Assembly (NCBI GenBank): GCA_031281025.1
Contig: JAITFY010000053.1
Coordinates: forward strand, 1 to 35,489
Direction: 5' to 3'
Length of the DNA stretch: 35,489 bases
Source: Treponema sp.
GTDB taxonomy: Bacteria; Spirochaetota; Spirochaetia; Treponematales; Breznakiellaceae
In this document: in pieces, positions 1 to 17,893 of the stretch
Layout: each line of letters opens with the position of its first letter
Numbering within the stretch: the stretch's first letter is position 1
Translations under genes and position numbers: made by a program
The notes under the pieces: model-generated
Database searches by the model: none
Seen by the model: the letters and a program-made list of their open reading frames with translations, nothing else
Told to the model about the DNA's origin: nothing

Positions 1-551
1 GTACCCAATGTTGCAGTGTAAGGAAAAGAGCCAAAAAACAGGTAATCATTTAAAAACGCTCTTAAATCAGCAGTTTTTTTTCTGGCATTAATTCCTTTAA
101 GAGTTAGATATTCTGCAAAAGACAAAGGCAGCATGTTTATTTCGATGTATCTACCGGAAAGCAAAGTCGCTAATTCTCCGGAAAGCATATAGGCATTAGA
201 GCCTGTAACATACAAATCAACCCTTTTTTTTAAAAAAAGCCCATCAATTGCTTTTTCAAAACCAGCGCACTGCTGCACTTCATCAATAAAAACATAAGTA
301 TATTTATTTTTACACAGGCGCTTTTGTATATAAGCATACAAAACCTTGTAATCCAGCAAAGATTCAAATTCGGGATATTCCAGATTGATCGAGATTATCT
401 GATCATCGCCAACGCCGGAAGCCTTGAGCCAATCGATATACTGCAACAAAAGCGTAGATTTCCCACACCGCCTGATTCCAGTGATTACCTTTATAACCTG
501 TTTTTCCCGCCAAGCCGTCAATTCAGCCATATATTCTTTTCGTTGTACCAT
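1..551 (-). CDS. AAA-type ATPase of the DUF4143 family, 5' part only (runs off the left edge)
   Basis: The reading frame opens at an ATG at 551 and stays open to base 1, giving about 183 residues of the N-terminal half. A Walker A motif GIRRCGKST lies at residues 25-33 and a Walker B motif YVFIDEVQ at about 86-93. A sensor-like VTGSN and the LSGRYIEI and LSFAEYL stretches follow. This order is typical of the large prokaryotic AAA_14/DUF4143 ATPase family, whose C-terminal DUF4143 domain would lie outside the window. The cellular role of this family is poorly known; many members are sporadic accessory genes, often in multiple copies per genome. The start has no Shine-Dalgarno but sits 7 bases after a TATAAT box, so the mRNA may be leaderless. 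An alternative start is Met8 at 530, preceded by a weak purine run. The family call is firm; the function is not. Confidence 0.85.
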   Translation of the reverse strand, partial: MVQRKEYMAELTAWREKQVIKVITGIRRCGKSTLLLQYIDWLKASGVGDDQIISINLEYPEFESLLDYKVLYAYIQKRLCKNKYTYVFIDEVQQCAGFEKAIDGLFLKKRVDLYVTGSNAYMLSGELATLLSGRYIEINMLPLSFAEYLTLKGINARKKTADLRAFLNDYLFFGSFPYTATLG

Positions 552-558
552 AAACCAA

Positions 559-586
559 ATTATACACGATTTTCTTAAAATGTCAA
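559..586 (-). promoter_or_regulatory. Near-consensus sigma-70 promoter of the AAA ATPase gene
   Basis: Read on the minus strand, TTGACA (586-581) is followed after 16 bases by TATAAT (564-559). Both hexamers are perfect. The ATG at 551 is 7 bases past the -10 box, so transcription should start at or next to the A of the start codon. The -35 box overlaps the edge of the palindrome at 585-612. Confidence 0.8.
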
Positions 587-652
587 GTTATTTCTCTGTA
601 GAGAAAAAACTTCTTAAAATACCAAGTTTTTTCTCTACAGAGAAATAACTTG
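584..652. repeat. Pair of inverted 28-29 bp palindromes upstream of the ATPase gene
   Basis: Two units, 584-612 and 624-652, are exact reverse complements over 29 bases. Each unit is itself an imperfect palindrome: 13-base arms AAGTTATTTCTCT / AGAGAAAAAACTT with one mismatch around a 2-base centre. The units are separated by 11 bases. The first unit touches the -35 box of the ATPase promoter and the second lies just upstream, which is the geometry of a double operator. It could also be a small mobile palindromic repeat. No regulator gene is visible beside it. Confidence 0.75.
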
Positions 653-732: not shown

Positions 733-1920
733 ATGTTACCAATTACTGTAACCGAGCTTACAGAACAGATTCGCAGCTGTCTTGAGGGGTCTTTTTCTGT
801 TGTCTGTGTTGAGGGCGAAATCTCAAATTGCAGGCCGGCAAGTTCGGGGCATCTTTATTTTAGCTTAAAAGATTCCAGCGCAAAAATTGATGCCGTAATG
901 TTTAAAAACAGGCTGCGGACTTTAAATTTTGAACCAAAAGACGGAATGTTATTGCGTGTACGCGGAAGCCTTTCTGTTTATGCGCCAAGGGGAACTTACT
1001 CCATCGTATGCGAAGAAATGGAAATTGCAGGACATGGCGAAATTCTTGCGCTGCTGGAAAAAAGAAAACAAAAGCTAAAACAGGAAGGCCTGTTTGATAC
1101 AGAGCGAAAAAAACCGCTGCCGCGTTTTCCTTTTACTGTTGGAGTTATCAGTTCTCCCACTGGGGCTGCTGTCCGCGATATTCTTAATATTTTGGCGCGG
1201 CGCGCTCCAAACCTAAAAGTGATAATCCTGCCCGCTGCAGTACAGGGCGACGATGCAGCCGCGCTTTTAACGGCAAGGATTAGGCAGGCAAACCAATGGC
1301 AGCTAACAGATGTATTAATCGTAGGAAGGGGAGGCGGCTCTTTGGAAGATCTGCTGCCGTTCTCCGAAGAAGAAGTTGTCCGCGCAGTAGCGGCATCGGA
1401 CATTCCAGTGGTAAGCGCAGTGGGGCACGAAATTGACTGGGCTTTGTGCGATTTTGCCGCAGACCTGCGAGCGCCAACACCATCCGCAGCCGCAGAGCTT
1501 GTCAGCGAAAACCTTTGCACGCTTACGGACACAATCAATGAGTATGCGGAAATTTTTACTGACGTTATGCGAACACGTCTGGAAAGAGCGCGTTTATTGA
1601 TAAAACCTTTTGACCCGCAGGATATGGAATACCGTATCCGCACCATTTTACAGCCGCGTCTTATCCGTCTTGATGATGCAAAAGATTCACTAATCACAGC
1701 CATGTCAGAAAAGTGTGTTACATTAAAAAACAGGGTAGAACTTACAAGCGCTGTAATAAAAGCCGCAAGCCCGTTATCTGCAATGGAAAAGGGATTTTCC
1801 GTTGTAACAGACAATACAGGCAAAGTGGTACTTGACGCTGCAAAAGTAAAAATAGGGCAACAGCTGACTATACGTCCATTAAAGGGAAAAATTACTGCAA
1901 AAATCGAGGCTATAATTTAA
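733..1920 (+). CDS. xseA: Exodeoxyribonuclease VII large subunit
   Basis: Catalytic subunit of exonuclease VII, which degrades single-stranded DNA into oligonucleotides in repair. Residues about 1-100 form the OB-fold ssDNA-binding domain, with the family signature GEISNCRPASSGHLYFSLKD. The catalytic domain follows with VGVISSPTGAAVRDI, then GRGGGSLEDLLPFSEEEVVRA (from about G198) and the GHEID box at 231-235, followed by RAPTPSAAAELV. At 395 residues it is shorter than the E. coli protein (about 456), with the shortening in the helical C-terminal part. It begins an operon with xseB (10 bases downstream) and mutL. The start is inferred from the close -10 box and the lack of any upstream in-frame alternative with a better site. 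Confidence 0.96.
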   Translation: MLPITVTELTEQIRSCLEGSFSVVCVEGEISNCRPASSGHLYFSLKDSSAKIDAVMFKNRLRTLNFEPKDGMLLRVRGSLSVYAPRGTYSIVCEEMEIAGHGEILALLEKRKQKLKQEGLFDTERKKPLPRFPFTVGVISSPTGAAVRDILNILARRAPNLKVIILPAAVQGDDAAALLTARIRQANQWQLTDVLIVGRGGGSLEDLLPFSEEEVVRAVAASDIPVVSAVGHEIDWALCDFAADLRAPTPSAAAELVSENLCTLTDTINEYAEIFTDVMRTRLERARLLIKPFDPQDMEYRIRTILQPRLIRLDDAKDSLITAMSEKCVTLKNRVELTSAVIKAASPLSAMEKGFSVVTDNTGKVVLDAAKVKIGQQLTIRPLKGKITAKIEAII

Positions 1921-16786: not shown

Positions 16787-17893
16787 ATGCACCTTCCTGC
16801 AGCGGAAAAAAAAGAATACCTTACCCAACAACTCATCACTTATATAGGAAATAAACGGTCTTTATTGGATTTTATTGGCGATGGAATAAAAAAAGTTCAA
16901 AAAAAACTAAATAAAAACAAGTTAAAAATGTTTGATGTATTCAGCGGTTCGGGAATAACCGCAAGATATTTTAAGCAGTTTTGCGATCTGTTAATTGTAA
17001 ACGATCTGGAAAAGTATTCTTCTGTTATAAATGGCTGTTATTTGTCAAACGAAGATGAATTAAATTTAGCTTTATTACGTGAATTTTATCAGGAAATTAT
17101 TTCCAAAACAAACAAAGGTTTAAAAAAAGGAATAATTTCTGATTTTTATGCCCCTGTTGATGATACAAATATAAAATCTGGCGAACGTGTTTTTTATACA
17201 ACCAGAAATGCCATGTACATTGATACTGTAAGGCAATTAATAAACCAAATACCACAAGACGAACAAAAATTCTTTTTAGCACCGCTGCTTTCTGAAAGTT
17301 CCATACATACAAATACATCGGGGGTTTTTAAAGGTTTTTATAAAAATAAAAAAGGTATAGGACAATACGGCGGAAATAACAAAAACGCATTAAAAAGAAT
17401 TACCGGAGAAATCAATTTGCCGTTTCCTGTTTTTAGCAATTTTAATTGCGAGGCTATTGTACATAACAAAGATGCAAATACAATTATTGGCAGTATACCA
17501 GAAGTTGATATAGCTTATTTGGATCCTCCGTATAACCAGCATCCGTACGGCTCAAACTATTTTATGTTAAATTTAATTTTGGATTATGACTATCCAAAAA
17601 CAACAAGCAAAATTTCCGGTATACCGCAAAATTGGAATCGTTCTGTTTATAACAAAGGTACTCAAACCTTAAATGCGCTTACTTTTCTTGTAGAAAACAT
17701 AAATGCAAAGTACTTATTAATATCATTTAATTCGGAAGGATTTATTAATATAGAACAAATGAAGGATATGCTTAATAAATATGGAAAAGTTGAAGTATTG
17801 GAGACAAAATACAATACCTTTAAAGGAAGCAGAAACTTAAATTCCCGTGACATTCATGTTAAGGAGTATTTGTATTTACTGGAGAAGGCATAA
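16787..17893 (+). CDS. D12-class DNA adenine-N6 methyltransferase
   Basis: A 368-residue methyltransferase of the D12 (Dam/alpha N6-adenine) class. Motif X is ITYIGNKRSLLDFI near residues 18-31, motif I is DVFSGSGITARYF, and the catalytic motif IV is AYLDPPYNQ with DPPY. A C-terminal LLISFNSEGF strand completes the fold. It methylates adenine N6 in a specific DNA site that cannot be read from the sequence. No restriction endonuclease, specificity subunit or repair nuclease gene is adjacent, so it is a solitary enzyme here, flanked by tatT and a pectate lyase. Its coding sequence is visibly richer in A and T (many AAA, AAT and TTA codons) than its neighbours, suggesting horizontal acquisition. 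A canonical hairpin terminator follows directly. Confidence 0.9.
   Translation: MHLPAAEKKEYLTQQLITYIGNKRSLLDFIGDGIKKVQKKLNKNKLKMFDVFSGSGITARYFKQFCDLLIVNDLEKYSSVINGCYLSNEDELNLALLREFYQEIISKTNKGLKKGIISDFYAPVDDTNIKSGERVFYTTRNAMYIDTVRQLINQIPQDEQKFFLAPLLSESSIHTNTSGVFKGFYKNKKGIGQYGGNNKNALKRITGEINLPFPVFSNFNCEAIVHNKDANTIIGSIPEVDIAYLDPPYNQHPYGSNYFMLNLILDYDYPKTTSKISGIPQNWNRSVYNKGTQTLNALTFLVENINAKYLLISFNSEGFINIEQMKDMLNKYGKVEVLETKYNTFKGSRNLNSRDIHVKEYLYLLEKA

Follow-up and report, generated by a model that had tools for sequence, protein, structure and literature searches.

What is a pair of long palindromes doing at the promoter of an ATPase gene? The question is raised by the start of the window, by which we mean the whole stretch of DNA that was analysed: the entire contig C123, 35,489 bp, of a draft genome that is 82% complete. 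A first-pass annotation had described two exact 29-base reverse complements, each itself palindromic, one of which touches the -35 box of a TTGACA-16-TATAAT promoter. Each part of that description is borne out by the measured features, which are as follows.

3 to 551, minus strand: N-terminal 183 amino acids of the ATPase, the proposed autorepressor; matches AAA_14 (7.5e-35) and, via its orthologues, the PADLOC family PDC-S01
559 to 564, minus strand: -10 box TATAAT, reading 564-559, with a 16-nt spacer to the -35 box
581 to 586, minus strand: -35 box TTGACA, reading 586-581; in the same register in orthologue L025, and TTTACA in orthologue L104
585 to 612, no strand: proposed operator O1, the proximal 28-bp palindrome AAGTTATTTCTCTGTAGAGAAAAAACTT, in arm 584-612; has 2-3 bases in common with the -35 box
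613 to 623, no strand: 11-nt spacer between the 29-nt arms
624 to 651, no strand: proposed operator O2, the distal 28-bp palindrome, in arm 624-652; reverse complement of O1 and 39 bp from it
733 to 1920, plus strand: xseA, exonuclease VII large subunit, a divergent neighbour; outside the system and absent beside the orthologues

The two arms are 100% reverse-complementary over 29 nt, and each is internally a 13+13 palindrome about a 2-nt centre. Because each unit is nearly palindromic, the two are inverted and direct copies at once: read as direct repeats, they form 39-bp units at 572-610 and 611-649 that match at 85%. The direct and inverted repeats of the window lie 19 and 17 s.d., respectively, above 60 dinucleotide shuffles, none of which (0/60) reaches them, and a chance origin is excluded. 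The ATG of the ATPase gene is at 551-549 on the minus strand. Both dyads are upstream of the -35 box and hence outside the ATPase transcript, which rules out an RNA hairpin of that transcript. An element belonging to xseA is likewise ruled out by the absence of xseA beside the orthologues. An autoregulatory operator should overlap the core promoter of its regulator's own gene, and the dyad does so if the ATPase is that regulator.

The promoter had been assigned to a DUF4143 ATPase, and this assignment is supported by the AAA_14 match in the reading frame at 3-551. The gene is cut at the contig end, and the remainder, including the DUF4143 part, is on contig G000:C87. The two contigs overlap inside the gene (window 1-276 with G000:C87:1-276) at about 99% protein identity, though several silent differences separate them; strain variation is the probable reason that the assembly broke there. 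Elsewhere in the window, a gene for a D12-class N6-adenine DNA methyltransferase (16787-17893, plus strand) is flanked by a TRAP transporter cluster on one side and a pectate lyase gene on the other; the neighbours scanned include no obvious restriction enzyme.

We searched for the window palindrome with up to three mismatches. In its own genome it occurs at the window locus alone, and across 40 genomes of the genus it is found only in the window (two copies) and directly upstream of the two closest orthologues; a reversed control pattern had no matches in the same 40 genomes. The random scatter without link to ATPase genes that would have refuted the first-pass annotation is therefore not what these genomes hold. 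The two orthologues are encoded at G030:C25 (77% identical over the first 183 residues) and G011:C32 (71% identical; locus L104, from Spirochaetia bacterium MS502-93), and the palindrome copies before them, with one and three mismatches, are at the same position. In orthologues L025 and L104 the register of proximal palindrome, -35 box and -10 box is kept and a degenerate distal half-site is retained at a spacing of 39 bp. The flanking genes differ, with no xseA, and no neighbour gene is conserved beside the orthologues. An operator tied to one gene should be present only where that gene is, which holds for the window palindrome and, within the window's genome, for the operator of a paralogue, L014, found at its own promoter alone.

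We extended the analysis to 228 distinct DUF4143 ATPase promoters, 144 from the window's order and 84 from named genomes of many phyla, with 212 control promoters taken from 20-kb stretches of similar contig types. Strong repeats (z>=3) are present at 78% of the 144 own-order and 52% of the 84 named-genome ATPase promoters, compared with 16% of the 212 controls (p 2.5e-33). The far-upstream and 3' flanks of the same ATPase genes are at control level, with strong repeats in 12% and 14%. Thinning the set to <70%, <60% or <50% identity leaves 67-68% of ATPase promoters with strong repeats. The repeats extend from about -100 to -20 and end before the start codon. Three paralogues in the window's genome illustrate the pattern: L014 carries CTTTTTGCCCCTATCCTACTTAG three times at 23 bp, L010 carries TTTTCCCTGTAAAAAGGTGTTGT four times at 33 bp, and L009 carries TTTTGATACTGAAAA at 33 bp. 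About a third of ATPase promoters, more of them in named genomes, have no clear repeat by the z measure. Core promoters, too, tend to be near consensus: a score of 9.7 out of 12 or higher is reached by 51% of own-order ATPases versus 10% of controls (p 1e-18).

Several features of the sampling bear on these figures. ATPase starts were inferred through homology and control starts were set at the most upstream codon, which may understate control scores; when ATPases were rescored from their most upstream start, 60% still reached z>=3 and 39% still had near-consensus promoters. The genomes are mostly MAGs, sampling is biased to strong family matches, and archaeal members are left out, including two Methanosphaera plasmid matches. 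The feature may be absent from distant members. Thermus TT_P0211, a distant DUF4143 gene of T. thermophilus HB27 plasmid pTT27 (probably L342:9854-11074), is reported to be 6.6-fold up in the joint presence of a plasmid and Argonaute (PMC4406477), expression data of this kind being rare for the family. Its promoter has no significant repeats, and it was dropped as an outside supporting case. Relatives are found on 230 plasmid records, 173 of them from Acinetobacter (about 45% identity, mostly at full coverage), and on 17 phage records; the copy on Listeria plasmid pLIS51 has a perfect inverted repeat with 17-bp arms at its promoter. Three consecutive, same-direction DUF4143 ATPase genes lie within a stretch of 4.5 kb in Verrucomicrobia UBA3624 (L165, 1280-5778), a genome with 19 matches. 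The culturable anaerobe Blautia schinkii DSM 10518 has 8 copies.

The repeats are common to the family, but their sequences are not. Among 143 pairs of ATPases that are at least 70% identical and have unrelated far flanks, 134 have a promoter element in common. Promoter similarity then falls with protein identity, from 56% of pairs at 65-70% through 26% at 60-65% and 9% at 50-60% to about 1% below 45%, whereas similarity in a control stretch (-330 to -210) is 0-8% at all identity levels. Paralogues within one genome have an operator in common in only 0.5% of 366 pairs. The operator sequence is thus private to the gene and travels with it; two genes have it in common only if their proteins are at least roughly 65-70% identical. 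The suggestion in the first-pass annotation that one cis-element is common to DUF4143 genes is consequently wrong as to sequence, because operators are private to subfamilies, and right as to architecture, iterated repeats being present at most promoters. Within the window's clade the outer parts of the palindrome follow a plan, AAGTTTTT/AAAAACTT, around a gene-specific centre: AGTTTT-N10-16-AAAACT occurs in 25 of 120 promoters against none of the 212 controls (shuffled mean 0.18), and the most frequent distance from the dyad centre to the first base of TTGAC is 12.5 nt, which is the window's register. Across 32 genomes of the genus encoding 135 ATPases, no same-genome pair is at least 65% identical, where about six would be expected by label permutation (p 0.001). 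That is the identity range in which operators start to be common to two genes, and the lack of such pairs may be a sign that copies with one and the same operator are incompatible, although vertical descent or the assembly of MAGs could produce it too.

Spacing between repeats behaves differently from sequence. Direct-repeat spacings cluster at 23 (46, 69), 32-33 (64-66), 39-41 (80) and 58-60 bp, and on the protein tree of 97 promoters these classes require only 6 changes, compared with a mean of 49 and a minimum of 39 when shuffled (6 versus 26.7 after thinning to <70% identity). A held-out set of 28 genes came from 12 named genomes that span several phyla. Repeats were present in 71% of them. 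In the 11 cases that could be called, the nearest protein (28-51% identical) predicted the period correctly in 9. The repeat period is thus inherited with the protein. Periods of 23, 32.5, 40 and 59 bp correspond to about 2.2, 3.1, 3.8 and 5.6 helical turns; since these are not whole turns in all clades, we infer that the periods more likely reflect the size of a bound oligomer than helical phasing alone.

What kind of protein is encoded behind these promoters? The full-length orthologue L104 matches AAA_14 (3.7e-32) followed by DUF4143 (5.1e-18), and PADLOC assigns the window gene's orthologue to its profile PDC-S01 with an E value of 1.5e-143. PDC-S01/DUF4143 ATPases, in which an ATPase is fused to a PD-(D/E)XK-type domain, are reported to rank fourth in frequency among the candidate defence genes of prokaryotes (PMC12988326). 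PDC-S01 is an unvalidated label for a phage-defence candidate, with anti-phage activity not shown. No sequence relative of the ATPase was found in the PDB. An AlphaFold2 model of L104 (pLDDT 90.9) has an AAA+ domain and an alpha/beta C-terminus, and we read the three predicted helices at 220-268 together with the strands at 272-294 as a winged helix. The best fold matches are the archaeal ATPases 2QEN (Z 18.6) and 2FNA (Z 18.3), over about 271 residues, followed by plant NLR NB-ARC proteins (Z about 16) and CED-4 proteins. In the model, at least, the protein therefore has the AAA+ plus winged-helix arrangement expected of an NB-ARC-like ATPase. The winged helix is the likely reader of the operator, although no single segment tracks operator similarity much better than the rest: when segment identity was compared with operator similarity in a sliding window, residual correlations were weak (best 0.16) and no segment stood out. 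By analogy with NLRs, it could instead be a structural domain. In the window's clade the nuclease motif reads E(V/I)DF...QV(A/S/C), with A, S or C at the lysine position (for example, L104 residues 339-369), whereas the 23-, 32- and 59-bp clades often keep EVK; arrays occur with or without the lysine. A model of the C-terminal domain alone was unusable (pLDDT 36), so the relationship to nucleases rests on the literature and on our reading of the motif.

We consider it likely that the pair is a two-site autoregulatory operator through which the ATPase represses its own gene, and the paired palindrome is probably a private 'off switch' at that gene's own promoter. Binding by the ATPase, repression and release are all inferred, with no binding or expression data behind them. 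Autoregulation by the ATPase had been one possibility in the first-pass annotation, and we favour it given that the palindrome is confined, in the genomes searched, to this gene and its orthologues and that most relatives have repeats of their own. That most genes of the family carry private repeats points to ATPases that recognise DNA and turn off the genes encoding them. Autoregulated genes typically combine a strong promoter with a tight operator, and we interpret the near-consensus promoters and their operators in this way.

In the mechanism that we propose, a near-consensus sigma-70 promoter would drive expression of the DUF4143 ATPase, an NB-ARC/STAND-like AAA+ protein with a putative winged helix. 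A dimer of the ATPase would probably bind each palindrome, placing two dimers 39 bp apart, and the bound protein would cover the -35 box, turning off its own gene and limiting its own synthesis. A change in nucleotide state, a ligand or a signal might then release the ATPase and derepress the gene. Most family members would follow the same plan, with operator sequence set by subfamily and spacing by clade. With private sequences and clade-specific spacings, paralogues within one genome would therefore be wired separately.

The arrangement could also arise if a separate regulator, encoded by the host or travelling elsewhere, binds the repeats and controls the ATPase genes. Direct proof of binding by the ATPase is lacking, and genes for helix-turn-helix proteins lie near some plasmid-borne relatives, such as those on A. 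johnsonii plas1 and pRUMAL01. However, such a regulator would have to contend with a different operator at each gene, only 0.5% being common within genomes, and with a window operator that is present nowhere else in its genome. It is not encoded by any conserved neighbour at the orthologues, and both operator sequence and period track the phylogeny of the ATPase, such that one private partner would be required per ATPase. We regard this explanation as unlikely.

A further possibility is that the array serves mainly to store or silence the ATPase as a DNA-tethered sensor, for instance of invading or damaged DNA, with promoter control being secondary. The NLR-like fold, the phage-defence-candidate label PDC-S01 (PMC12988326) and the many private arrays per genome would suit such a role. 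The arrays nevertheless lie on the core promoter and accompany near-consensus promoters, a placement that transcriptional control fits best, and we think a primarily tethering function very unlikely. Least credible is the proposal, also made in the first-pass annotation, that a mobile element (a MITE, cassette end or recombination site) brought the promoter, or that the pair is a site for movement of the ATPase gene: gene and operator do lie in differing contexts across genomes and the family does occur on 230 plasmid and 17 phage records, but the window palindrome has no further copy in its genome and is found in 39 other genomes only at orthologues, repeats are not raised on the 3' side (14%), the register of the dyad to the -35 box is fixed, and spacing is clade-specific. 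A MITE-like element should have dispersed copies and be independent of any one gene; the single locus in its own genome and the restriction to orthologues of one ATPase meet neither expectation.

Autorepression by the ATPase through an iterated operator has partial parallels in known systems. Iterated-operator autoregulation is itself already known, for example from RptR (PMC12255303); there, as in toxin-antitoxin autorepression, the gene of the binder has tandem palindromes across its core promoter. RptR has three direct repeats over the -10 box and is a small dedicated repressor that uses one 6-bp palindrome (TAGCTA, with some variants) across genomes (PMC12255303). Here, in contrast, we propose that the binder is the ATPase itself; each subfamily has a sequence of its own and each clade its own period. 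The AAA+ plus winged-helix arrangement resembles that of Sso1545 (2FNA), PABY2304 (2QEN), plant NLR NB-ARC proteins and CED-4, although the DUF4143 C-terminus differs from these STAND/NLR-like ATPases, for which we found no link to private operator arrays. The mycobacterial transcription factor IniR (PMC5760070) is likewise an Sso1545-like ATPase that acts at a promoter, but its target is another operon, which it activates by way of a C-terminal SdiA-like DNA-binding domain, and it also possesses a MalT-like sensor domain; a Pfam scan found neither domain in the DUF4143 ATPase orthologue. Closest in domain content are the PDC-S01 candidates (AAA_14 plus DUF4143), whose profile the window orthologue matches, with the difference that the window's clade has A, S or C for the catalytic lysine of the nuclease motif. 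In the literature that we found, no mechanism, regulation or operator arrays are described for PDC-S01. In the open-access literature we also found no description of iterated-operator autoregulation for DUF4143/AAA_14 ATPases, nor for any family whose members each possess a private operator and whose clades each have a spacing of their own.

DUF4143 ATPases are a huge family with no known mechanism. A private DNA target per gene offers a direct assay, with hundreds of predicted protein-DNA pairs. If the ATPase does bind, an NLR-like ATPase would be a sequence-specific autorepressor, and the family would provide many mutually distinct repressor/operator pairs. More tentatively, and with less confidence than we place in autorepression at this locus, DUF4143 ATPases may constitute a very large class of NLR-like DNA-binding switches that address themselves, each with a private iterated operator whose spacing is set by the oligomer geometry of the clade. 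If so, a cell could hold dozens of mutually insulated, autorepressed modules, and, as with incompatibility groups, mutual repression or exclusion would be expected between copies that have one operator in common.
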